A stretch of 64,000 bases of DNA, taken from assembly GCA_029931535.1 (NCBI GenBank), contig JAQPZY010000660.1:124001-188000 (forward strand). Reading direction: 5' to 3'. Positions 1-61,634 of the stretch are shown here, piece by piece; the first letter of the stretch is position 1, and each line of letters starts with the position of its first letter. Both the position numbers and the translations under genes were made by a program. The notes beneath the pieces were generated by a model, which made no database searches, had not been told where the DNA came from, and saw only the letters and a program-made list of their open reading frames with translations. Source of the DNA: Margaritifera margaritifera (taxonomy: Eukaryota; Mollusca; Bivalvia; Unionida; Margaritiferidae).

Positions 1-12
1 CTGTAGATAGGT

Positions 13-20
13 TATAAAAG
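13..20 (+). promoter_or_regulatory. TATA-like box at the unit start
   Basis: TATAAAAG lies 187 bp upstream of the homing-endonuclease frame and recurs at the same place in every unit. It is a plausible + strand core promoter element, but the surroundings are so AT-rich that chance is a fair alternative. Confidence 0.2.
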
Positions 21-199: not shown

Positions 200-201
<2 letters not shown>

Positions 202-649
202 GCACCCTGTGGGGTTGATACTCATTATTATCAGCATGTATGTATTTCTACATCTTATACAAGTTACAAAGGCGGATATTTTTGAAATTCTGTCAGAGAA
301 AATCTTGTTCAAATCTGTGCCAGCACCTAACAGTATTTGTATACTTTGGACAGGCAATGTAACATCAAATAGGTTATATGGGCTATTGTCATATAGGGAC
401 CCTGAGACTAACATTTGGAAAAAGAAACATGTCCATAGACTGGCATTCACAATAAAGATGAGAAGTGTAAACATTTCAAAAGAGTTAGATGCATCGCATT
501 TATGCCACAATAGTTTGTGTGTGTGAATGCGGATCACCTCAGCCTGGCACCCCATCATATCAACAACAAATAGGCAGTACTGCATAGGATATGGGAATTA
601 TTTTGGACATGGTGAATTTCCAAACTGCATGCTACAGTTGAAATTGTGA
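200..649 (+). pseudogene. His-Me finger homing endonuclease remnant (zinc-loop domain), unit 1
   Basis: Looks like the zinc-binding loop region of His-Me finger homing endonucleases (the I-PpoI type), which cut double-stranded DNA. The first frame (200-526) has ILWTGN, then HVHRLAF, then SHLCHNSLC near its end. A 2-base expansion of the GT run near 516-525 shifts the frame. The next frame reads NADHLSLAPHHINN. One extra A near 567-572 shifts it again, into NRQYC...GHGEFPNCMLQ, ending at TGA 647-649. The candidate catalytic His (SHLCH) and Asn (HINN) and the Cys/His zinc ligands are still visible. Both frameshifts occur in all 16 units, so the gene was dead before amplification. The ATG at 200 is probably not the true start: units 4 and 5 lack it. 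Family assignment is from recalled motifs. Confidence 0.75.
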
Positions 650-815: not shown

Positions 816-1068
816 GAATAGATTTATGCATTGATGATTGTTTGTTATGAGTAAGGAGGATATAAGGAAGAAAGAGAGACTGGTCTTTATTTTATTTCAC
901 TATTCTGGTATGACAGTTTTATCTTAAATCATACATACACTATTCCATTCATTCATTCATTCAATGCTACATTCATTCATTCATTCATTAATTCATTCAG
1001 TCAGACAGTCAGTCAGTCAGTTCATGTTATTATAGAATATGTTTGTTTGTTTGTTTGTTTGTTTGTTT
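774..1068. repeat. Cluster of four tetranucleotide microsatellites
   Basis: (GATT)n at 774-815, (ATTC)n at about 945-988 with one break, (AGTC)n at about 998-1022 and (GTTT)n at 1041-1068. The cluster recurs in every unit between the endonuclease remnant and the ribozyme, with copy-number differences that make these tracts the most variable part of the unit. No gene is visible in 650-1096. Confidence 0.9.
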
Positions 1069-1096
1069 ATTTCTTTATTTATGTCTTGATATTCTG

Positions 1097-1203
1097 AGAA
1101 AACTGTTTCGACCTCTCCATAGGTCTCATCAGGTGGTAGCAGGTAACACAACTGCACATAACATGCGTTGTGTTACCTACGGATTTCCCCACGACAGTTT
1201 TCC
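1097..1203 (-). ncRNA. Hammerhead ribozyme, stem III open (type III), unit 1
   Basis: A self-cleaving RNA on the - strand, complete by inspection. Stem III: GGAAAACUGU (1203-1194) pairs with ACAGUUUUCU (1106-1097), nine Watson-Crick pairs plus a G-U. The cleavage triplet GUC ends at C17 (1193); the cut falls between 1193 and 1192. Stem I starts with GUGG (1192-1189) paired to CCAC (1136-1133). An 8/2 internal loop follows, then a 14-bp helix (1180-1167 with 1152-1139, one G-U) and an apical loop. The core CUGAUGA is 1132-1126. Stem II is five pairs (1125-1121 with 1114-1110) with loop AUGGAG. GAA is 1109-1107, and A15.1 (1106) pairs with U16.1 (1194). Every invariant core residue is present. 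Cleavage would leave a 2',3'-cyclic phosphate on the upstream part, including the transposase remnant. Confidence 0.9.
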
Positions 1204-1287: not shown

Positions 1288-2497
1288 TCATTGGCTCCTG
1301 GTGAACCTGTGCATAGGAGTGATCACCCTTGGAATGACTGTGCAGCATGACTTCCTGTTCTGGGCTGAGTTCTGTACCTTAGATGAGCCTGTATCATATA
1401 TCCCTGTCTTTCCAGTACACATTTCCTGTTTTCCGGATACTTTGGATACAAATGATGGTAAGTACAGTGTTTTATCCATTTGATCCAGTGATCTCAGAGT
1501 ACTTGGTGAAAGTATACCCCCAAGTGTTTTACTTTTGTTTTCAGAGATGATCCAAGTCTGTTATTGAGTCTGTGTATTGTTGAATGCACTCTTGCCTCAA
1601 AGTTTCTTGAATAGTTGACATTTTTAGGTACGGAAACACTGATTGATCTGTTCACAGCCTCACATTTCTGCGTGTTTGTATTAAGTTGCAGTCTTTGTAC
1701 AACATCACAGGAAAGTTTCATTTTCAGCACTTCCAGGAGAATATTCTTATCACTTTCTGTCATGTTTAGATGAGTCACTTGATGAGGGCCCATTGTCTGC
1801 CATATCCATTTCATTTAGCTGTACAGTAGCTTGACCTACAATGTTGGAAGCCCTTTGCATAGATGTTCTACTAGGTGGTGGAATGTAAGAGGCTGCAAGT
1901 AGGTATCTAGCCCTGGTGTTGCCCATTGGTGTATCCTGTAGTCCAGCTTGAAACGTCATATTTACAGCAGCAGGATTTGGCCCAGGTTTAGCTGTTTTTA
2001 TCTCGTCATACAGCTAATACTCATGTGACTTAAAACTGCAGTTTTTACATATCATAGTATGCTTCCAAGCAAGTCCCCATTTTGTTTCATTAGCAATTTT
2101 GAAATCAGGTCTCACATCTGTTGTCTTGATTTCCATGATGATGGATGATATCATTCCAGATTTCCACATTTTTATTCCTACAGATCATACATGTCCCCTC
2201 ATGCTGATTCACTTCTGTCTCTTTCAGGGTCAGTCTTGCTTTGGATGATGGCCATAGAATTCTAGCAGACCCAGGTGTGCCATTACAGTCTGGTGCCACA
2301 ACTGACTGGAGACCCCCACCTGTCGGCTTCGTCACTGCCATGAGAGAGAACTTGTCTGCATCCATTCTTCTGGTCACTTGAGCAGATGCAGCACTGGAAC
2401 TTGGTAGAGTATCATCAGTCAGAAATCTGACCCCTTTGTTATGTGGAATATTTCCTGGTTTAAAAAAAGTTTTCTTCTTCTTGGTGTACCCTTTCAT
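1288..2497 (-). pseudogene. Mutator-like transposase remnant, internally deleted, unit 1
   Basis: Resembles the animal proteins annotated as Mutator-like transposase, DNA-transposon enzymes. Frame 2497-2105 opens with MKGYTKKKKTFFKPGN and IPHNKGV, then APDCNGTPGSARIL and EIWNDII. A 1-base shift near 2112 leads to NETKWGLAWKHTMICKNC (a CXXC pair). A TAG at 2016-2014 interrupts before LYDEIKTAKPGPNPAA. Frame 1959-1750 then gives FQAGLQDTPMGNTRARYLLA and IPPPSRTSMQRASN. Near 1750-1800 the sequence jumps to a C-terminal part in another frame (1814-1494) with NTNTQKCEAVNRS and PKNVNYSRNFEARVHSTIH. One more shift near 1513 leads into 1479-1288. The central part, where the catalytic core should lie, is missing. 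Shared breaks show it was dead before amplification. The family call is from recalled motifs. Confidence 0.75.
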
Positions 2498-3197
2498 GGT
2501 TTCAGATAAAATAACTGCATGTAAAAGTACAAGAATTATCCTCTCTCCCCCTTATATAACTGGGAAAAGGTGTGCTGCCCTGGTATCATATAACTTCACG
2601 AACTCTTCAATACCATTGGATCCCTAGCATCTAACAGCTCCTTCCCTTAAGGGGTGAAAATTACATCACTACCTTAGTTACTACCCCTAACTAGCGTATT
2701 CAGATGCTACCAGATTTCAGGTGCTACCTATTATTGACAGGCCCTGGTTTAATTACTTCACACCTGATAAGGAAAACCATTGATGTTTGTGATAAAGGAT
2801 TGGAGACATGTTGCAAAAGAACAAAATTTGTCAACTTGAGTTTTTAAATTTTCATGATAATTTAATTTAAATTCAAATTTTTAACTAAAAATATGTATCA
2901 TATTTTAAAATTGACTCTCCACAGAGAGTTTAGCAGCCAGGTTTAATTTCTAGTAATTTCCAGATTTGTATGAGGACTAAAAACTAACTACAGTTTATTT
3001 CAAGTGTTTATCTTAATTAATAAATTCACCATTCAACTTTAAGTTTTGTGCATTGTTCACAGTCAGCCATTTTGAAGTTCATACTGTTTGTAATACAATG
3101 GTGTCCGATAAAATTTATATGCATGCATCAAATTCATTGAAACTTTGCAGCAGTATTTCAGACACATTTATTTGAGTTTTTTTCCATTCAGGTGAAA
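2498..3197. other. Unit region without a recognised gene
   Basis: Between the transposase remnant and the long-only segment. I see a CCCCTTAAGGGG palindrome in most units (unit 1 has CCC), the near-repeat GATGCTACC / GGTGCTACC, an ACTCTC-CACA-GAGAGT hairpin (2914-2929) and AT-rich sequence. No coding region. It may hold the old promoter of the transposase gene. Confidence 0.6.
2862..2883. repeat. Right arm of the AT-rich inverted repeat
   Basis: Partner of 139-160, lying upstream of the transposase remnant. Unit 5 has lost this arm in a 43-bp deletion. Confidence 0.4.
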
Positions 3198-3278
3198 ATG
3201 TCTGACCCTGATAGGAATCAGGACACAATTAATACTTCCGGTTCAGTACCTACGAATGTAGTCCGAGTCTATTTTTAG
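3198..3278 (+). other. Short conserved ATG frame spanning the variable junction
   Basis: 26 codons beginning MSDPDRNQDTINTSGS, directly after an acceptor-like pyrimidine tract ending CAG (3191) and with A at -3. Long units 3, 4 and 5 break it near the end. Short units keep only MSDP before running into the next unit. It could be a lost 5' exon, but codon evidence is too thin to call a gene. Confidence 0.15.
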
Positions 3279-3668
3279 ATCCTTTTTTCCTCTCTCATTT
3301 TGGTGGTGATGTATGCATTAGATTTAGTCATTCTTAGTATTGATTTAAAGGAAATTGGTTATTGTTTAGAATATGAGCATTATAGTGTGGTTGTCTGTGT
3401 GTATTTTGGCGACAGTGCACAGTGAGTAATGAGGCATTGGTGCTGATCCGGAAGTGAAATCTGTGACTCATTGCACGTTGCTTTGTTTACAGTCCAGCCA
3501 TTCACAAGAATGCCGGTTAACCTTTGACAAGAACTTCAGCGTGAGTTCATCTTTGAAGATACTTTACAGCAAGATATGATTTATTAGGATTTGGACACAG
3601 TGGAAAGTTCAGTACTGACAAACAAATGTAGAGACTATATAGGAAAATGAATTGTGGTCTGATTCCTG
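3211..3668. other. 458-bp segment present only in long units
   Basis: Equivalent positions: 6876-7333, 10538-10996, 14203-14660, 26625-27079, 30266-30723, 37116-37573, 59972-60429 and 63642-64000 (cut). Absent from units 7 and 9-14. It is flanked by CCTG direct repeats. Its edges lie in an imperfect inverted repeat, CTGATAGGAATCAG against CAGACAGGAATCAG (12 of 14). It is either an inserted element with a 4-bp duplication or sequence lost once by deletion between short repeats. Confidence 0.9.
3493..3540 (+). other. Possible 48-nt mini-exon
   Basis: Bounded by TTTGTTTACAG on the left and a good donor GTGAGT on the right. Open in one frame for exactly 16 codons (SSHSQECRLTFDKNFS), so it would be skippable without shifting frame. 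Present in long units only. No family recognised. Confidence 0.2.
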
Positions 3669-4760: not shown

Positions 4761-4867
4761 AGAAAACTGTTTCGACCTCTCCATAGGTCTCATCAGGTGG
4801 TAGCAGGTAACACAACTGCACATAACATGCGTTGTGTTACCTACGGATTTCCCCACGACAGTTTTCC
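4761..4867 (-). ncRNA. Hammerhead ribozyme, unit 2
   Basis: Sequence identical to the unit 1 ribozyme, core and all helices kept. Confidence 0.9.
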
Positions 4868-8423: not shown

Positions 8424-8530
8424 AGAAAACTGTTTCGACCTCTCCATAGGTCTCATCAGGTGGTAGCAGGTAACACAACTGCACATAACATGCGTTGTGT
8501 TACCTACGGATTTCCCCACGACAGTTTTCC
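8424..8530 (-). ncRNA. Hammerhead ribozyme, unit 3
   Basis: Identical to unit 1 although the GTTT microsatellite next to it is expanded. Confidence 0.9.
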
Positions 8531-12088: not shown

Positions 12089-12195
12089 AGAAAACTGTTT
12101 CGACCTCTCCATAGGTCTCATCAGGTGGTAGCAGGTAACACAACTGCACATAACATGTGTTGTGTTACCTACGGATTTCCCCACGACAGTTTTCC
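12089..12195 (-). ncRNA. Hammerhead ribozyme, unit 4 (one apical change)
   Basis: One substitution (plus-strand C to T at 12158) weakens a single pair near the tip of stem I. Core, stems II and III and the cleavage triplet are unchanged, so activity should persist. Confidence 0.88.
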
Positions 12196-15772: not shown

Positions 15773-15879
15773 AGAAAACTGTTTCGACCTCTCCATAGGT
15801 CTCATCAGGTGGTAGCAGGTAACACAACTGCACATAACATGCGTTGTGTTACCTACGGATTTCCCCACGACAGTTTTCC
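15773..15879 (-). ncRNA. Hammerhead ribozyme, unit 5
   Basis: Identical to unit 1. It lies about 1.3 kb downstream of the LINE 3' end on the same strand, so read-through RNA from the LINE would contain it. Confidence 0.9.
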
Positions 15880-17201: not shown

Positions 17202-17214
17202 AGTACAAGAATTA
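17202..17214. repeat. Target-site duplication, left copy
   Basis: AGTACAAGAATTA, matched exactly at 25983-25995. The uninterrupted units have this sequence once, so it is the duplicated insertion target of the LINE. Confidence 0.95.
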
Positions 17215-17880
17215 CTTACTTATTTGGATTAGACTCGCGTGCAACCTATTTGGTCATGTGCGAGGAATTAATGTGCGCACTGCGCACTATTTAATTTGCC
17301 CCCAAACTGTTGCTGTAGCATCAGTTTGGGGTTCGTCAAGCGGTTAAAACAGAGATGTAAAATCCGCTTGCGCTTTACTGCATGCACCGCATGCTATTTA
17401 ATTAATCGGCGTGGGGGTGCATATCGCCCTCATGCCATTTAATTGTGTGCCCAGCACACTGTCTGTTGCTTTGTAATGTCCGGGCGTGGAAAAGGCGGAG
17501 TCGGGAACGGCCAGAGAGGAGCTTCTGCGTCACATGGTGGTGTCTGTGGTCCAGGGTGTGATTTTGCCTAAATATTGATGTCGTCTTGCATGTGTCGCTA
17601 TTTTAAAAATTTTTAATTTTAATGAACTCTATATGATTGGCTGACTGGTACCGTGTTGAAGTTGGGTTAAGTCCAAGGAGCTTTGCCCTATACTTGATTC
17701 TATGCATGTCGTAGTGTTGTTGTTGAAGTAATCGTTGCCACTTTGTGTGGCTGGGCCTGATGGCTTTTGGTTTTAAGCCACCTTATATTGTCTAAGGGTT
17801 TTGGGTCAAGGTTTTTAAGTTTCTTGTTAGCAATTGAATTTGCTGCCTTTTTGTTTGGAAACTGGGTTTAAGTTGTAGAA

Positions 17881-18104
17881 TATATACCGCTTTGTGCAGT
17901 GGGCCCCTGATGGTTTGGACTTGTGACCACCTTATATTCTTAGGTTCGATTTGGGCCATTGAGAGGGTCCTATTTAGGTAGTTTCAGTGGATCTGGGATA
18001 AAGCATGAACTATATACCGCATTGTGCAGTCGGCCCCTGATGGTTTGGACTTGTGACCACCTTATACTCTTAGGTTCGATTGGGGCCATTGTAAGGGTCC
18101 TATT
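17881..18104. repeat. Two 94-bp direct repeats in the LINE 3' UTR
   Basis: Copies 17881-17974 and 18011-18104 begin TATATACCGC and contain CCCCTGATGGTTTGGACTTG; they differ at a handful of bases. A more diverged third copy is recognisable around 17738-17810 (GGGCCTGATGG). Confidence 0.85.
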
Positions 18105-18242
18105 ATTGTTTCATTGGTGCGTTGTTCTGATACTCCTTGGACTGTTTTTTTCGAATATCGGTACCAGTGTGGGTGTTTAGAGAGAGCGTTAGAGAAAGCA
18201 GAGTATACAGTCATGCATGTATTAATTAAAAAAGAAACAACC

Positions 18243-18269
18243 TTTTTTTTTTTTTTTTTTTTTTAAAAA

Positions 18270-18301
<32 letters not shown>
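18243..18301. repeat. Double poly(T) tract in the LINE 3' UTR
   Basis: T runs of 22 and about 26 separated by AAAAATAAGA. On the element's strand these are A runs, but they lie about 1 kb before the 3' end, so they are not its tail. Confidence 0.85.
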
Positions 18302-18309
<8 letters not shown>

Positions 18310-18443
18310 AAACTTTCATTCATCAATTCATCCATTCTTTTCCTTCCTTTCGTTAGTAGTCATGCATGGGGGATGGTTATGGTTGTTGAAAAATAGCGAA
18401 AACAAAACTTGCTTTGCTTGTTATTAATTGTCCTATTTTTCAG

Positions 18444-18759
18444 ATACTTGCAGTGCGAGGGCCCAAGTTTGTTTAGACGTACCCTCCACCGTAAGGGCTG
18501 GGGATTTACCTGGTTCCTCCCTGCGTTTTGATCTGATCTTTTAATTTATTTTAAATTTTAAGTTTATTTTAGATTTTGTGTCTAAGTTTTGCTTGGCTGT
18601 CCTAATGATTTGAGGTTCAAATACTTGCAGTGCGAGGGCCCAAGTTCGTTTAGACGTACCCTCCACCGTAAGGGCTGGGGATTTACCTGGTTCCTCCCTG
18701 CGTTTTGATCTGACCTTTTAATTTTATTTTAAATTTTAAGTTTATTTTAGATTTTTGTG
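18444..18759. repeat. Two ~137-bp direct repeats in the LINE 3' UTR
   Basis: Copies 18444-18580 and 18621-18759 start ATACTTGCAGTGCGAGGGCC at a spacing of 177 bp and are almost identical, so the duplication is recent relative to the first pair. Confidence 0.88.
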
Positions 18760-18820
18760 AGGAGACCGGAACTTTGTGTGTATGTGTGTGTGTGTGTGTG
18801 GGGGGGGTGTTTTAATTTGG

Positions 18821-20513
18821 TTATAATTTTCCCCTTTTCCCTATGGCAGAGATGAACCCTAAGATGTTTGCATACATCGAGTTGATGTTGTTCGTTTTGG
18901 TGTTAAAAAACGTCAGGTACTGGGCTGGTGCGTTTATTTTTGTTTGTTTTTCCTGGAAATCTGTCCTTTCTGGTGTGTATTTGGGGCAGGTATTAAAGAT
19001 ATGATCTAATGTTTCCGGGACGGGGCAGTGAGGGCAATTTATGCCTGCTTCTCTTATCTCTGGTATAAACCTTCCAAAACTGCTGGCTAAAAGGGTTTTG
19101 CCAGTTTTGAGTCGAGTTATGACTTTGGAGTCGTATGGGTTTACCAATTTAGGGGCTGATATATTCCTGTAAACTTGCTTTTGCAGTCGATAGAGTTTTC
19201 TCCCTTTTGCTGAGTTATCCCATTCCCTTTGCCATTTAGTATCTATTTTCTGCCTTATTATACTGTAAATTTCCAGTACACTATAATCCATTTGGTGTAT
19301 TTCAGATTCTTTAAGCTTTCTTTTGGCTTCTTGGTCTGCCCTTTCATTCCCTGGAATATCGATGTGGGAGGGTACCCACATGAATTCCACAGTATATTTT
19401 TGTTGGTCCAGGGTTTTTAGTTTTAAATATACTTCCCGTAACATGTTTTCCCTGCTGGACGAGTTATTTGTTTCCAGGGTTCGTAGCACACTGAGGGAGT
19501 CGCTGATTATCACTGTTTTGGCTGTGTGGGTTTCTTCAATCCATTTTATAGCTTCGTTAATTGCCCAAAACTCGACTGTATAAATGGAGCAGTGATCAGG
19601 CAGCCTTGCCCCCAGTGTGATATTCTCCCCCGGGATTACGACTGCGGCTGCCGTACGCATGGGTTCCAGTGATTTTGACCCATCGGTGTATATTTGTGTG
19701 TAGCCCTCATATCTATTCGCAAGATCAGTTAAGATTTTTGCCCTGATTTCTAACGGGTTATGTTGTTTGTCCCCATAGTTTAATGCTTCGACATTGATTT
19801 TGGGGGCCTTACAGGTCCATGGTGCGGTGTCCAGGTGTTGTATTATTTCCGCTTGGGTATTGATCAGTTCTAACTCCCTGTGTAGTTCATGGATTTTTTT
19901 CCCTCCTGGTAGGTTTGCTTTTAGTTTATGTCGGAAGGGCTTGTTGCACTTGTTTATGATAATGCGGGTGGGGTGAGATTTCGGGTGAATTGATAGCCGT
20001 GTCTCGTAGCGCAGGAGTAACTCCTCCCTTCTAAGGTGTAGAGGGGGTTCCCCTGTTAAAACTCGTAGCTCGTCCCCAGAAGTGCTACTGAGAGCGCCGG
20101 TGCAAATAACAAGAGCCTGGTACTGAATTCGATCTAGTTGTTTAAGTACATTAGGGTGAGCCGAAGCATATGCCTGGGACCCGTAATCTATTTTCGATCG
20201 AATGAGTGTCCTATATAATGTAAGGAGTGTGGTCTGATCCGCCCCCCACTCAGTCCCTTTAAGGTTTTGTAAGAGGTTTAGATCTTTTCCGCATCTCCTT
20301 ACTAGCTCTGTTATGTGCTTGCTCCATGTAAGGTGCTCATCAAATAGCATTCCCAAGAAACGAGCCACTTTTTCAAACTTTATCTCTGTACCGTTTAAGT
20401 ATAATTTTGGGGGGTCCCTGCGTGTTTTAAGTTTAGGTGTAAAAAGCACCCCTATTGTTTTACCGGGGGATATTTTGAAACCCCACCTATCTGCCCATCT
20501 ACCAATCCCATCT
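18821..20513 (-). pseudogene. LINE ORF2, RT thumb, RNase H and C-terminal zinc motif
   Basis: Continues ORF2 after the second frameshift; the frame is open before its first ATG at 20449. It begins with the end of the RT domain (ARFLGMLFDEHLTWSKHI). RNase H follows with all four acidic positions: YTDGSKS, VEFWAINEA, IISDSLSVL and NERADQEA. It would remove RNA from the RNA-DNA hybrid. Near the end is CPHCPVPETLDHIFNTC, the CCHC-type zinc motif usual at LINE C termini. The normal stop is at 18821. Confidence 0.93.
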
Positions 20514-21695
20514 AGTCCATCTGCATTTCGCTCACCACAGCTTCACTGGACGGGTTTCCCGCTTTCCAGATTCCGCTGTCATCAGCAAACTGAGATATGT
20601 CCAGCTGAGTTTGGTTTATTGACTTTTCCAGGTCATTTATCATGATATTGAAAAGGGTGGGACTCAGTACACTCCCCTGAGGGGTGCCGTTTTCCAGCTC
20701 ATGTATTTCCAAATACTGTCCTCCCACCCTCGTTTGGATAGTTCGACCGGTTAAGAAGTTTGATATGAATTTATGCATGTGGCCAGTGATTCCATATTGG
20801 TTTAATTTGGCAATTAATCCTTTGGTCCAGATTAGATCATAGGCTTTTTCGAGGTCAAGGAAGACGGCGATTAGATGTCGATTACTTTTATGTCTTGCAT
20901 TGAATGCCAGTCTTATGCTTGACTCCAGTCGTATAAGTTGATCTAATGTGGAGCGTTTATTGCGGAATCCGCTTTGATTTTTGGATATCAAATTCTTACT
21001 CTCTAGGTGGAATTTAAGCCTATTATTTATCATGGTCTCCATAACCTTGCATATGTTATCTGTAAGCGATATTGGTCTGTACGAATTTATATCTGTTGGA
21101 TCTTTTCCAGGTTTTGGGATTGCGATGACAATTGCTTGTTTCCATCTTGTTGGAATCTCTCCCGATCGCCAGATCGCATTCAACAGATCTAAAATCAGCA
21201 GTTCGGTTCTTTTGGGGAGATTTTTGTAAATTTCATAGCCTAGTGTGTCCTCCCCCGGCGAGGTAGTTTTTTTCCTGCATAAAGCTTTTCGCCATTCATG
21301 AATGGTGAAATCAACATTTAGGGGGCTGTCTTGGTTACTCCTATCTGTGAATAAGTGAGGGTATTGTGTTTCGACCCTGTTGCGGTGTATTTGGAAGTTA
21401 GCTGTATGGTTTGTGTTGCTGCTCATCCCGGCGAAGTGTGATGCTAATTTTTCTGCTTTTTCCCTGTCAGTTGTAAGCCCTGGGAGTTTAGGGGTTGCAA
21501 AGGATTTTTTTCCTCTTATTTTCCTAATTTTATCCCATACCTGCTTTGAATTAGCCTTAAGATTTATGGATGAGCAGAATTTTTGCCATGAGGTTTGTTT
21601 TGCCTTAAATATTATGTTTTTCGCCAGGCGATCTTTTTCTTTGTAAACAAGAAAATCGAGGTTGTTTTTGGAGTGCCGAAACCTGTTTAGGGCCC
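20512..21695 (-). pseudogene. LINE ORF2, reverse transcriptase part
   Basis: The frame is open from the homopolymer frameshift; its first ATG is at 21426. Reverse transcriptase motifs in order: PGEDTLGYEIYKNLP, AIPKPGKDPTDINSYRPIS, NQSGFRNKRSTLDQL, HLIAVFLDLEKAYD (first catalytic Asp), GTPQGSVLSPTLFNIMIND and QFADDSGI (catalytic Asp pair). It ends early at TAG 20514-20512, just past the catalytic centre. The next frame continues with GIGRWADRWGFKISPGKT, so a one-base loss near 20514-20518 broke it. Confidence 0.93.
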
Positions 21696-22657
21696 TTTTT
21701 TTTATCTCTTAATGCTTGTTTACAATCCTCATTCCACCATGGTACGGACTGTTTGATGCCCCGCCCTCCCGTTTTGGGAATACTTTGCTCCGCTGCTGAT
21801 GATAGTGCTTTAATGACGTTTTCGTTAAAGGTTTCAATGTTTTCGTCATATAATTGGACGTCGTCTATCTCTTCACAGAGAGTGCGAAACATCTCCCAGT
21901 CCGCCTTATCATATCTCCATTTTGGGGGCATTTGTGTATTATTTTTATGTGTTTTGAGTTGAACTGTGATCAATATGGAAAAATGGTCGCTGCCTAGTGT
22001 GCTGGTATGATCTACTTCCCAATCGGCTATCTCCGCTACCTTGGGTGTGCACAAAGTTAGATCGATTGCTGACATGTTCCCATTTATTGGGTTAATTCTG
22101 GTACGTGCACCATTGTTTAGTATGACTAGGTTGGATAGTGCGACCCATCTTTCAATATTGACACCCCTCCTATCCAAGTGGGTCCCTCCCCATTGCTCGC
22201 TGTGGGCATTAAAGTCGCCGCATATAATTGTGTGATCCCCGAGCTCGCCAACGATTGCGTTGAATGTTTCCGGTTTTATGACTTCCCTACCTGGGTCGTA
22301 CATGTTTACAATTGTTATTGGTCTACTACCATTGTTTATTTTGACAATTTGGTGTTCCGGTTTCGGCTCGGGATCTGGTACTAGTTGTGTACATTCGACA
22401 GACTCACTTGATATAGCATCACTGACATAGATTGCCAGTCCGCCTCCCTGCTGCCCTTGGGGTCGATTTTTGGTGTAACAGGTAGAGTACCCTGGTAGTT
22501 TAGGGCAGCTTTTCTGCTCATTCAAGTGAGTCTCCTGAATGCACACAACGTCCGGCTTGTTTAGGGCGCTATTTACTCTAAGGACTAATTCGGAAATGTT
22601 TTTCCGTATTCCCCTACTATTCCACTGTAGTATGTAAATTGTTTCTGTTGTATTCAT
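21605..22657 (-). pseudogene. LINE ORF2, AP-type endonuclease part
   Basis: Starts with MNTTETIYILQWNSRGI at the ATG overlapping the ORF1 stop. The endonuclease nicks target DNA to prime reverse transcription. Visible motifs in order: the Asn in QWNSRG, CIQETHLN with the catalytic Glu, GGGLAIYVSD, ICGDFNAHSEQWGG (Asp/Asn), AIDLTLC and the terminal GSDHFSI (Asp-His). VPWWNEDCKQA marks the usual end of the domain. At 21696-21703 a run of eight A's on the coding strand shifts the frame. With one base fewer the reading would continue into the next part, so the last residues here (after RDKKK) are not native. Confidence 0.9.
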
Positions 22658-23593
22658 TGTTGGGTCCCCCTATTTACGTTTATGTTTTCTCTACCGTGGT
22701 TTTCGGTTTGTGTAGGGTTCTGGGGTCTAATCCGCAGTATTGCAAGGTCTAATATCTGGGTTAGTACGTTACCGGCAGGGATTTGATTGTCCTTAGTTAG
22801 TTTGATGACCCCGTCAATTATGTCCCGGATAAGTTCTAGAACTTGAATAGCTGTTATGTTGTTAGGGATTTCTTTCTTGCCGGTGGATGGTGCTTTAGTT
22901 GATTTTGTATCCAGGGTTGATTTAGTATTTCTGTTATTATTGTTTTGTGCCGCGCTGGGGGGATGTTTTTCTGTTGTCGGTATGGTGTTTGTTTTATCCT
23001 GCTCCTTAGTTCTATTGGGGTTGGGTGGTGTTGTTTTTGTTGATTCGGGTGTCTGTCTGTTGGTTTGTTTGGTTGTTTGTCCTGTTTTGTTGTGTTGGTG
23101 CGCTGGGACCTCTCTGATAGGTTTTGATTTAGTTTGACTGGTGGTTGGGGCGGTAATTTTGGTGCTATTAGTGGTTTGCATACTATTATTGATTTCAGTC
23201 TTAGCGACTGGGTATGGTACTTTGTTTATTGACATGTACTCGATGATAGCATTTTCTTTGATGCTGTATCTGCACTCACGTGATCGTGGGTGGTGGGGTT
23301 CTTTGCAGTTTGCACACTTTTGTCCCTGGAATTTACATTGACCCTCGTGGGGTCCCCCACACCGTCTGCATCTTTTGTTAAATCTACACTTGCTGGTGAA
23401 ATGCCCCCACCCCTGGCATTTGGTACAATACCTAGTTTCGGGGTTGTACTCTGTCACCTGATAGTTTCTACCTGTTGGTCCTAGGTGGATCGTAGCTGGG
23501 GGGGTCTGTTCAAATTGTAAGAGCACTGCAGTAGATTGCTCGCTCTGTTTATTATTTAATCGTTTTGCCTGTTTGATTTCCTGGCCCTGTCTA
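22654..23593 (-). pseudogene. LINE ORF1, C-terminal part with three CCHC zinc knuckles
   Basis: Continues ORF1 after the frameshift; the frame is open from about 23593, upstream of its first start-like codon at 23526. Three knuckles follow each other: CTKCQGWGHFTSKC, CRRCGGPHEGQC and CANCKEPHHPRSREC. These bind nucleic acid in gag-like ORF1 proteins. A long Thr/Asn/Lys-rich tail follows. The stop TGA (22656-22654) overlaps the ORF2 start as ATGA. Confidence 0.88.
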
Positions 23594-24886
23594 TTTAATT
23601 CCTGTGTTAAGCATTGTGTTGTGCTCCCTATCTATCCTAATGATTTTGTTTATTACTGGTTTAGGTTTACTGTTAAGGTGGACGTGATTTTGTGGTCTGA
23701 TATTCATGTGGCGAGTAATTGTTACTCGGAATGGGCCAATTTTGTGGATTTCTAAGTATTTGGCGACTTGTTTGGAAGTAGCGCATCTAATCACTACATA
23801 TTTTTCCCTGGTGTGAAGGATTTTGAAATTTCCTCCTTGGGTTTTGCTCAAAGTGGTGGCTATGGTTCTGTCGCTTATGTTCCGAATATTTATTTCCTTG
23901 CTTGTTAGGAATAGTGTTAGTTCCCGTGGGTGGTACGCGAGCTTGTGATTTGAAGGGTAGTTGAATGTGTTGTTATTTTGGTTTTGTTTGTTTTCCTTTG
24001 GAGGTTGTATTTCTTGTGTTTGTGTCCTGTGGTTATTGTGGCTGTTTTTATAGTTGTTTTGTTTAATATTGCCTGATCGTTTGAATTTGGGTTGCCCTAC
24101 AAGTGGCCTTTTCCCTTTGCCTTGAATTATTGTTGTTGATTTTTTTACCGGGGTGGTTTGTGGCAGCCTAGTGGGTTTTTCTGGGGTTATCTGTCTGGGT
24201 TTTGAGGGGCCTGCTACCTGACTGTTGTGTACATTTTGGTGGTTATTTTTTTCGTGGGTGGGTGTTGTTATTATTTTTTCCCTGTCTTTGTTGTTAGAAG
24301 TAATGCCTAATCCTGTTTGTTTGTTTTTTTGTGTATGGGTTGTTGTTTGATTGGAGTCTTTGTGACTTTTCTTTTGATAATTGGTGTTAATCGGGGGTGG
24401 TGTTTCTATGACACGGTGTGTGTCTTGGTTCCCCCCTTCCGCCCTGCTAATTGGAGTTATGATCATTGGTAGGGTTTTGGTTGGTTGTGGCGATAGTTCT
24501 AACATGGGTAGTGTAGGGTCCTGGTCATAAGAGTCGACTGTGTTTCGGTTCCTATTTATAAATACCTCTGAATCCGATTCTGAGTCCATAATGTTTGAGT
24601 TAGGAGTGGATGTCATAGGGTTTGCAGTGGTTTCCATGGGCACTGTATCGTTCATATCCGGGGTGTCCTGACTGGAGTTTTGAGACCTATTGAATTTGAA
24701 TGACACCCCCGGCGGCGTGTTATCTAGGGAGGACTGGCTTTCATCAAAGATTAATCTGGTTTCCCTAACTGTGCTGTTTTCGTTTGTATTTAGTGCACCT
24801 AAGTGAGTTGCTGGCGGGGTTTGAGTAATACTTCTGTTGATCTGTTTTCTGGGGATCCTTTGTTTCTTCATTTGAACTTTGCTCAT
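23591..24886 (-). pseudogene. LINE ORF1, N-terminal part (gag-like RNA-binding protein)
   Basis: 431 codons from ATG at 24886. The first 300 or so residues are low-complexity, rich in Asn, Thr, Gln and Pro, which suggests disorder. Residues from about 320 to 410 (LTLFLTSKEINIRN through GPFRVTITRHMN) look like the folded domain found before the zinc knuckles in ORF1 proteins of this LINE group. The frame stops at 23591, but the next frame is open from before that point and continues into the zinc-knuckle part. This is therefore one ORF1 broken by a single frameshift, somewhere around 23595-23640. ORF1 proteins coat the element RNA. Confidence 0.85.
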
Positions 24887-25982
24887 TTCCGACTGGTGTA
24901 TTTTACTTACTTAGTGTAACGGAAATGTGGTTTGAAAAATAGCTAACATGGTGATTTTATTGTTGTGTTTGGAATTAAGAATTAACCCTAAGTCCTATGA
25001 ATGACAAACAATGCAAAAACCAAAAACGGAGCTATATTAGATTACTAAGGAGATGTTAAAATACCAAATTGTTAGATTAGTGAAGGGTCTTTAATGGAGT
25101 TATTTGTTATTAGTTGCCAACACCAGAATGGAATAATAAACATTGGGATAAATAAAGGATACAAATGAATATGATTGAAATATGAAGAAAGTATAGAGTT
25201 ACTATAAAATTGTTCAGTGGTTAGATTTTGAACTGAACCTCGGATTTGGGAGCGAGTGTGAAGATTTTGTTTGCAAAGCTCAATGTAACAGAAAATCTTG
25301 CAGTGATCTCACGGAGCTAGAGGATATGCAAGGATTCTGTCCAGGTTTTATGCTAGTATGGTTCCTAGCGCCTGTTTCTAAGCCTGGTTTTAAAATCTTC
25401 ACAAAGTACTCGGTTTGAAATATCAAATATTTGAATTGGCGCCAAAAATTGCTGATAATGGGATTGAATTTGTAAGTCTCGGTTCAGAGAATTAAGTTAA
25501 ACTGTTAGTGAATAAATTGAAAAAATGTAATATGTTATTAAATTCTGCACTCACACACGCTTTAAATAATAAAAAGAAAATTGCTAAGATGAATGATAGA
25601 GAGAGGGAGAGACAAGAAGTAGTTATGTGTTCCTATTTCGCCAATTACAGAGTTCAGGTTTACAAAATGATTCCTATCTTACCCTAATAATTTGGATTTT
25701 GACCTAGATTCCGGTTCAAATGAACAAAGAGAATTTCCTATGTTGTGGTGGTGTGATTTTAGCTGGCTGGTGGGCGGGCTGCTAGGCGGGCTGCAATAGT
25801 GATGGTAGTAGAGATCTGCTAGGCGGGCTGCAAGGCAGGCGGGGTTGATGGATGCTGCGAAGTGCTGCTGGTGGTGGTGGTGGTTAATAGCCGAGTTAAA
25901 AACGGAGAGTAAGCAAGCTCTCACCGCTCCATGGCTGTGACACGTCCGAACGACCCAAACTACACAAAAAAAAAGACTGCTG
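24887..25982 (-). promoter_or_regulatory. LINE 5' UTR
   Basis: About 1.1 kb without a convincing gene. Contains the direct repeat CTGCTAGGCGGGCTGCAA at 25779-25796 and 25816-25833 and an A/T run (25966-25974) close to the 5' end. LINEs carry an internal promoter in this region; none can be pinpointed here. A His-rich 81-codon frame at 25924-25679 looks like chance. Confidence 0.6.
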
Positions 25983-25995
25983 AGTACAAGAATTA
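25983..25995. repeat. Target-site duplication, right copy
   Basis: AGTACAAGAATTA, after which unit 5 resumes with TCCTCTCTCC as in every other unit. Confidence 0.95.
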
Positions 25996-28152: not shown

Positions 28153-28259
28153 AGAAAACTGTTTCGACCTCTCCATAGGTCTCATCAGGTGGTAGCAGGT
28201 AACACAACTGCACATAACATGCGTTGTGTTACCTACGGATTTCCCCACGACAGTTTTCC
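28153..28259 (-). ncRNA. Hammerhead ribozyme, unit 6
   Basis: Identical to unit 1 by inspection. Confidence 0.9.
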
Positions 28260-31804: not shown

Positions 31805-31911
31805 AGAAAACTGTTTCGACCTCTCCATAGGTCTCATCAGGTGGTAGCAGGTAACACAACTGCACATAACATGCGTTGTGTTACCTACGGATTTCCCCAC
31901 GACAGTTTTCC
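31805..31911 (-). ncRNA. Hammerhead ribozyme, unit 7
   Basis: Identical to unit 1; first ribozyme in a short unit. Confidence 0.9.
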
Positions 31912-35001: not shown

Positions 35002-35108
35002 AGAAAACTGTTTCGACCTCTCCATAGGTCTCATCAGGTGGTAGCAGGTAACACAACTGCACATAACATGCGTTGTGTTACCTACGGATTTCCCCACGAC
35101 AGTTTTCC
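35002..35108 (-). ncRNA. Hammerhead ribozyme, unit 8
   Basis: Identical to unit 1 by inspection. Confidence 0.9.
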
Positions 35109-38658: not shown

Positions 38659-38765
38659 AGAAAACTGTTTCGACCTCTCCATAGGTCTCATCAGGTGGTA
38701 GCAGGTAACACAACTGCACATAACATGCGTTGTGTTACCTACGGATTTCCCCACGACAGTTTTCC
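38659..38765 (-). ncRNA. Hammerhead ribozyme, unit 9
   Basis: Identical to unit 1 by inspection. Confidence 0.9.
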
Positions 38766-41854: not shown

Positions 41855-41961
41855 AGAAAACTGTTTCGACCTCTCCATAGGTCTCATCAGGTGGTAGCAG
41901 GTAACACAACTGCACATAACATGCGTTGTGTTACCTACGGATTTCCCCACGACAGTTTTCC
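41855..41961 (-). ncRNA. Hammerhead ribozyme, unit 10
   Basis: Identical to unit 1 by inspection. Confidence 0.9.
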
Positions 41962-45054: not shown

Positions 45055-45161
45055 AGAAAACTGTTTCGACCTCTCCATAGGTCTCATCAGGTGGTAGCAG
45101 GTAACACAACTGCACATAACATGCGTTGTGTTACCTACGGATTTCCCCACGACAGTTTTCC
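45055..45161 (-). ncRNA. Hammerhead ribozyme, unit 11
   Basis: Identical to unit 1 by inspection; exactly 3200 bp from the unit 10 copy. Confidence 0.9.
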
Positions 45162-48251: not shown

Positions 48252-48358
48252 AGAAAACTGTTTCGACCTCTCCATAGGTCTCATCAGGTGGTAGCAGGTA
48301 ACACAACTGCACATAACATGCGTTGTGTTACCTACGGATTTCCCCACGACAGTTTTCC
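48252..48358 (-). ncRNA. Hammerhead ribozyme, unit 12
   Basis: Identical to unit 1 by inspection. Confidence 0.9.
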
Positions 48359-51449: not shown

Positions 51450-51556
51450 AGAAAACTGTTTCGACCTCTCCATAGGTCTCATCAGGTGGTAGCAGGTAAC
51501 ACAACTGCACATAACATGCGTTGTGTTACCTACGGATTTCCCCACGACAGTTTTCC
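51450..51556 (-). ncRNA. Hammerhead ribozyme, unit 13
   Basis: Identical to unit 1 by inspection. Confidence 0.9.
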
Positions 51557-54651: not shown

Positions 54652-54758
54652 AGAAAACTGTTTCGACCTCTCCATAGGTCTCATCAGGTGGTAGCAGGTA
54701 ACACAACTGCACATAACATGCGTTGTGTTACCTACGGATTTCCCCACGACAGTTTTCC
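54652..54758 (-). ncRNA. Hammerhead ribozyme, unit 14
   Basis: Identical to unit 1 by inspection. Confidence 0.9.
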
Positions 54759-57857: not shown

Positions 57858-57964
57858 AGAAAACTGTTTCGACCTCTCCATAGGTCTCATCAGGTGGTAG
57901 CAGGTAACACAACTGCACATAACATGCGTTGTGTTACCTACGGATTTCCCCACGACAGTTTTCC
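57858..57964 (-). ncRNA. Hammerhead ribozyme, unit 15
   Basis: Identical to unit 1 by inspection. Confidence 0.9.
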
Positions 57965-61527: not shown

Positions 61528-61634
61528 AGAAAACTGTTTCGACCTCTCCATAGGTCTCATCAGGTGGTAGCAGGTAACACAACTGCACATAACATGCGTT
61601 GTGTTACCTACGGATTTCCCCACGACAGTTTTCC
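61528..61634 (-). ncRNA. Hammerhead ribozyme, unit 16
   Basis: Identical to unit 1 by inspection. Confidence 0.9.

Follow-up and report, generated by a model that had tools for sequence, protein, structure and literature searches.

A type III hammerhead motif downstream of the transposase gene in a KolobokP DNA transposon of Margaritifera margaritifera

The window, meaning the whole stretch of 64,000 nucleotides (64 kb) of Margaritifera margaritifera DNA that was analysed, is occupied by a tandem array that continues past both of its ends, terminal repeats having been found from C1113:108872 to 188097 (the window covers 124001-188000). Counted from site to site, 15 complete units measure about 3.2 or 3.66 kb, with one of 3.60 kb once a retrotransposon insertion is set aside, and they differ from their consensus by 1-15 mismatches in about 3.2-3.7 kb, gaps uncounted. 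The features are given by position in the window.

200..649, + strand: broken gene for a His-Me finger (I-PpoI-like) endonuclease, one per unit
1066..1079, - strand: two AATAAA poly(A) signals, putative in function, which begin 17 and 25 nt past the hammerhead
1097..1203, - strand: extended type III hammerhead of unit 1; the predicted cut falls between C17 (1193) and 1192
1300..2497 (ends approximate), - strand: relic of a PF20700 transposase gene, frame-broken
2551..2558, - strand: possible promoter box TATATAAG, about 55 nt upstream of the transposase ATG
3214..3666, unstranded: 453-bp LTDR with terminal inverted repeats of about 20 bp, GGAATCAG...CTGATTCC
4761-4867, 8424-8530, 12089-12195, 15773-15879, 28153-28259, - strand: hammerhead copies 2-6
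17203..25995, - strand: non-LTR retrotransposon, a later insertion in one unit, outside the transposon proper
31805-31911, 35002-35108, 38659-38765, 41855-41961, 45055-45161, - strand: hammerhead copies 7-11
48252-48358, 51450-51556, 54652-54758, 57858-57964, 61528-61634, - strand: hammerhead copies 12-16

The transposase relic, identified by PF20700 in a unit 1 read-through piece (E-value 3e-21, - strand), is without residues ~235-497 of a 666-codon intact frame, and the deletion junction lies near 1792/1793. The missing part includes the FDARYN, TTDGDAQ and SDPTH (DxxH) motifs, which we take to be the catalytic motifs of the transposase. The endonuclease relic was matched by PF05551 with an E-value of 1.5e-10 on a read-through piece and of 0.037, below the cut-off, on an unjoined piece. 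Between the hammerhead and the endonuclease, tetranucleotide runs of ATTG, CATT and TGTT were observed at 774-1087; runs of this kind reappear along the array, with lengths that differ between copies. The LTDR has nine matches in the window and is missing from 7 of the 15 complete units. In the units starting at 31901, 38755, 41951, 45151, 48348, 51546 and 54748, internal regions (INT) abut without a terminal repeat, and the INT-INT junction sequence is TGAC/CCTGTC, which fits an excision of that repeat. The retrotransposon is bordered by a 12-bp target duplication, GTACAAGAATTA (17203-17214 and 25984-25995); endonuclease, reverse transcriptase and RNase H were recognized on its - strand with Pfam, and CCHC-like frames by eye.

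Every repeat unit of the 64 kb carries one complete type III hammerhead motif on the - strand, 16 in total, which bears out what a sequence-only reading of the same DNA had claimed. Fifteen of them are identical over 107 nt, while the copy at 12089-12195 departs from them at one position of the stem I cap. In unit 1, read from 1203 down to 1097, stem III is formed by GGAAAACUGU/ACAGUUUUCU (10 bp, one G.U), basal stem I by GUGG/CCAC (4 bp) and the internal loop of stem I by GGAAAUCC/UA, above which lies a cap helix of 14 bp; the core consists of CUGAUGA, then stem II GACCU/AGGUC (5 bp, 6-nt loop AUGGAG), then GAA. That reading had the anatomy of this unit right (stem II, GAA, GUC triplet, stem III and a bipartite stem I), and the cut that it predicted at the GUC site, after 1193 and with 1192 as the new 5' end, agrees with C17 at position 1193. 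The A15.1-U16.1 pair, the UH site and the CUGANGA...GAA core are all present in one predicted RNA, and sequence complementarity provides three helices with an open stem III. One cut per unit would require both an active motif and transcription of the array.

A full descriptor, comprising the core, A15.1-U16.1, the UH site and stems I-III of at least 4 bp each, matched 16 times in the window and on the - strand only, and had no match in 100 dinucleotide shuffles of the window (12.8 Mb, both strands). The fold z-score of the hammerhead sequence was -6.58. A covariance model was derived from 21 aligned family rows, two of them copies from the window, and its matches to window copies are therefore partly by construction; an independent search also gave 16 copies. 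The covariance search with Rfam models that had been proposed along with the original claim came out mixed, with no match in the window at the gathering threshold and a Hammerhead_3 match at a lax threshold, of 22.1 bits (E 0.013) against a cut-off of 48.5 (RF00008), aligned in the wrong register because stem I is long. The corresponding score of the L070 copy, an intact element presented below, was 21.2. The Rfam gathering threshold is a curated score and no defining feature of a hammerhead ribozyme. The one short-stem type III motif tried from a viral contig (L001) likewise fell below the cut-off, and the gathering score may therefore not discriminate here.

For the window sequence, folding as a hammerhead costs 1.3 kcal/mol relative to the minimum free energy; the minimum-energy fold pairs into the core and slips stem I. 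Across the family this gap amounts to 1.3-3.6 kcal/mol in the 16 of 21 sequences that could be scored (five could not). In 19 distinct type III motifs of viral contigs, used as a yardstick, it amounts to 0-2.1 kcal/mol, and the motifs of L069 (3.6 kcal/mol) and L081 (3.0 kcal/mol) are farther from their minimum than any of these. The internal loop of stem I ends in UCC before a G and loop II holds UGGA, which allows three Watson-Crick pairs and a possible G.U. These three UCC/GGA pairs are preserved in 61 of the 63 cells of the family alignment, where no covariation of the loop pairing was found. A pairing between UCC(G) of the internal loop and (U)GGA of loop II is possible and would fit the interaction published for extended type III hammerheads.

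A separate observation concerns 40 viral contigs (L001-L040) that match CTGATGAGACC..GGTCGAAACAG, 38 of which fit type III with stem I spans of 17-19 nt. By eye, many of them show a hairpin immediately before the hammerhead and, a short distance after it, a likely start codon; hairpin, hammerhead and gene form a recurring order in this phage-like DNA. An exact hammerhead pattern had no match in viral contigs; a looser one, which matched these 40, had none in prokaryote genomes. Relatives of the transposase relic were not found in the viral and prokaryote collections, and a search of the viral contigs with the intact transposase gave none either.

The source genome assembly (2.45 Gb, 1696 contigs) was searched for further copies. 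Its wnt genes (40 matches over the cut-off, as against none in any of 14 control genomes) mark it as that of an animal. Twelve copies fetched as single-site (L049-L060) comprise six isolated elements and six truncated or tandem ones. The six isolated elements carry the 453-bp repeat at both ends and in the same direction, one repeat being truncated, and the array can thus be written as (terminal repeat-internal region)n. These repeats at both ends led to the rejection of two other readings, in which the 453-bp segment was a miniature element that had inserted, or the unit was a satellite containing a piece of a transposon. An LTDR pair is present in seven of the eight isolated copies measured, the eighth having a truncated repeat, and in the seven elements with a pair the two repeats share 95-99% identity. 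A matching ATAT duplication was observed at both ends of four of the eight isolated elements (L053, L056, L070 and L071); the duplication of L050 has one mismatch, and L054, L058 and L060 have none.

A search with a related transposase gave at least 89 matches, from the best 81 of 3783 candidates, and among the matches listed many open transposase frames span about 684 codons from stop to stop. All three full-length loci that were fetched (L069, L070 and L071) possess an open transposase frame of 666 codons, an open endonuclease frame of 148 codons on the opposite strand and, between these convergent genes, a hammerhead in sense orientation about 97 nt past the transposase stop. AATAAA signals start 17-49 nt downstream of the motif in these loci, the first at 17 or 25 nt, unlike the C539 copy, whose nearest AATAAA is 119 nt off and ATTAAA 107 nt. 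The L070 and L071 elements are 4875 and 4874 bp long. The L070 transposase aligned with positions 3-357 of the 357 of PF20700 (E 5e-71) and its endonuclease with PF05551 (E 2.1e-11) and I-PpoI (E 4e-4); both genes were recognized among the element's frames of 80 codons or more, where no reverse transcriptase was seen. Tandem KolobokP arrays with a spacing of about 4.4 kb were also observed in C557, C783 and C1333 (at least 7, 5 and 4 matches, respectively), and most of their copies have open transposase frames; arrays are thus not confined to the deleted form.

KolobokP elements are described in passages of Kojima and Bao (2022, PMC9587614) as having an LTDR of about 450 bp with its own terminal inverted repeats and 5'-GG..CC-3' ends, a transposase on the direct strand and a His-Me endonuclease downstream on the complement. 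The same passages report multimers of the form (LTDR-INT)n, LTDR loss between INTs, deleted derivatives and target duplications of 3-5 bp, attribute the arrays to unequal crossover and list 228 families, those of oyster measuring 4022-4748 bp. In the mussel, the intact transposase has the DxxH motif, the LTDR has short terminal inverted repeats and 5'-RR/YY-3' ends, with some copies starting GGCC, L070 bears the transposase on the direct strand and the His-Me finger nuclease on the complement, and both (LTDR-INT)n multimers and INT-INT junctions occur. By these structural hallmarks the family is a KolobokP, a name that replaces the Mutator label (Pfam: Mutator-like). As judged from sequence, each unit of the window is an internally deleted KolobokP DNA transposon and the array is its multimer. 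The satellite or retrozyme frame given at the outset is not supported and yields to such a multimer: elsewhere the genome holds isolated elements flanked by two LTDRs as well as copies in which the transposase frame is full-length. The motif, its sense position after the frame at three loci, the transposon anatomy and the coexistence of autonomous and deleted multimer arrays are all established at that same level.

Eighteen further stretches downstream of transposases were chosen from the at least 89 matches. Thirteen hold a full-length homologue of the hammerhead, three a broken one and two none, the last two being families at 50-53% protein identity. Of 23 distinct sequences found, two that were truncated or riddled with indels were dropped, as were four partial matches; of the 21 aligned, 20 keep all core letters, one of these 20 having a 1-nt insertion beside the core. 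Six of seven extra copies, chosen from 40 matches, keep the core and one lost G12. This nucleotide was lost by substitution in L074 and by deletion in L093, and the subfamily L072/L073, L091, L094, L095, L097 and L055:9001 shows an A.C at the first stem I pair. No compensatory double change was found at any of the 36 pairs, and pair statistics were not above those of shuffles.

Among 51 distinct contexts of 69, the essential hammerhead positions vary in 17 of 55 columns, as compared with 20 of 52 in the stem I cap (p 0.42) and 64 of 150 in the 150 nt upstream (p 0.15). They vary less than the 150 nt downstream (103 of 150, p 2e-6), a flank rich in microsatellites. Between L070 and C539, identity is 0.925 (92.5%) in the hammerhead, 0.917 (91.7%) in coding sequence, 95.9% in the 97 nt before the hammerhead and 75% in the stretch after it; between L070 and L071 the hammerhead (0.933) is below the coding sequence (0.981). 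Since the units of the window are near-identical, the window alone shows no selection. As a whole, conservation of the hammerhead is compatible with function and is no proof of it, and the conservation and covariation tests on these sequences give weak support for selection.

From its place on the transposase strand, the hammerhead of a unit would probably make a single cut in the RNA that contains it, past the end of the transposase gene, so that the messenger of intact copies would lose its likely poly(A) tail. The transposase RNA would be cleaved at the GUC just downstream of the gene and upstream of the AATAAA signals, and the stretch that holds the hammerhead would be a 3' untranslated region. 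With the tail stripped in intact copies, the dose of transposase could be limited and read-through into the convergent endonuclease gene could be stopped; in arrays, read-through RNA would be chopped to unit lengths, likely as a by-product. With such a cut in its transposase mRNA, a cut-and-paste transposon would carry its own RNA self-destruct switch. The hammerhead in the 3' UTR of Clec2 reportedly limits dose. For this same hammerhead, a review passage names a possible role at polyadenylation. More tentatively, KolobokP may be the first case in eukaryotes of a cut-and-paste DNA transposon that has a self-cleaving ribozyme built in, one in which every transposase message self-destructs, the dose is capped as arrays grow and convergent genes are kept from overlapping; we put this full reading forward as a possibility to which we do not yet lean.

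The same motif might be a passive passenger, acquired by an ancestor, active now or in the past and useless to the transposon, that persists only because the copies are young. The lack of covariation and the weak conservation contrast speak for such a passenger, as does hammerhead identity that tracks the coding sequence or is lower, and the near-identical units of the window (1-15 mismatches, about 3.2-3.7 kb) show no selection by themselves. It is nevertheless rather unlikely, given that 13 of 16 related copies retain the full-length motif in the same position, that these 13 include older ones (L072-L076 and L086) whose coding tail is 89-93% identical to that of L070, and that 12 of the 13 full-length homologues keep the core letters.

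A retrozyme-like life, in which array transcripts are cut to unit RNAs that are circularized by RtcB and serve as spreading intermediates, would account for the head-to-tail arrays and for the single hammerhead in each unit, an arrangement that accounts of retrozymes describe (PMC7229834, PMC7761336). In isolated copies of the mussel element, by contrast, a single hammerhead is flanked by two LTDRs that have terminal inverted repeats, and the ATAT duplication in four of eight points to DNA transposition; L070 encodes a transposase and an endonuclease in its frames of at least 80 codons, with no reverse transcriptase seen, and arrays are ascribed to unequal crossover in a passage of the KolobokP paper (PMC9587614). 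With units of 3.2-4.4 kb in place of 0.15-1 kb, the size above 3 kb, the open genes and the transposon ends contradict the small non-coding repeat by which retrozymes are recognized, and this route appears improbable. Least credible, to the point of being hardly worth entertaining, is an ordinary satellite DNA with a hammerhead-like hairpin arisen by chance: the tandem arrangement and the missing Rfam gathering match would suit it, whereas shuffled sequences gave zero descriptor matches, and dispersed single copies and coding relatives exist, the copies with open genes contradicting it. Self-cleavage of the transposase messenger remains the reading that we favour.

According to the accounts consulted, animal hammerheads are mostly linked to retroelements: those of type I occur in retrozymes, Penelope-like elements and Terminons. 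The extended type III forms are tied to delta-like agents and to unexplained insect loci. A place beside a class II transposase gene gives this ribozyme a new host and a concrete candidate role in transposon self-control. As a matter of speculation, it could also be a cellular source of the type III hammerheads in animal circular RNA agents. The words 'ribozyme' and 'hammerhead' have no occurrence in the main text of the KolobokP paper (PMC9587614), and in a mostly open-access literature, preprints excluded, no work was found that links hammerhead ribozymes with Kolobok; among the titles and abstracts listed, none dealt with a hammerhead in a DNA transposon.

Extended type III hammerheads are described, in passages of de la Pena et al. 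(2021, PMC7936874), from HDV-like agents of toad and termite and from termite and dipteran genomes, with a short basal stem I, an internal loop and a capping hairpin, GCCR of the internal loop pairing with YGGC of loop II. The mussel motif is alike in basal stem I, internal loop and cap, and possibly in the predicted loop pairing. It differs from the forms in those passages (PMC7936874) by a basal stem of 4 bp (5 there), a stem II of 5 bp (6 there), a cap helix of 14 bp or longer in the window form, UCC(G)/(U)GGA in place of GCCR/YGGC and a location inside a DNA transposon, not in a delta-like RNA or at an isolated genomic site. Retrozymes, which are reported as type III in the LTR forms of plants and type I in the non-LTR forms of metazoans (PMC7229834, PMC7761336 and PMC4918200), share the tandem repeats with one hammerhead per unit (PMC7229834, PMC7761336), whereas the present units are of 3.2-4.4 kb, have coding relatives and DNA-transposon ends, and carry type III in an animal. 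The discontinuous hammerhead of mammalian Clec2, as presented in part of PMC6155905, is also of type III, with a very long stem I and a place in the 3' UTR of a coding gene; there the gene belongs to the host and stem I spans 150-1500 nt, while here the gene is that of a transposase and stem I spans about 60 nt (PMC6155905). IStrons, in which a group I intron is combined with an IS element, likewise join a ribozyme to a DNA transposon, although theirs is a self-splicing intron and bacterial (PMC4227781). Finally, KolobokP in the published passages and the mussel family are alike in LTDRs, ends, gene strands, multimers, LTDR loss and deleted derivatives; the mussel family differs by the hammerhead in its INT and by the slightly greater length of L070 and L071 than of the oyster families. 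The hammerhead in KolobokP is a new combination of two known kinds.
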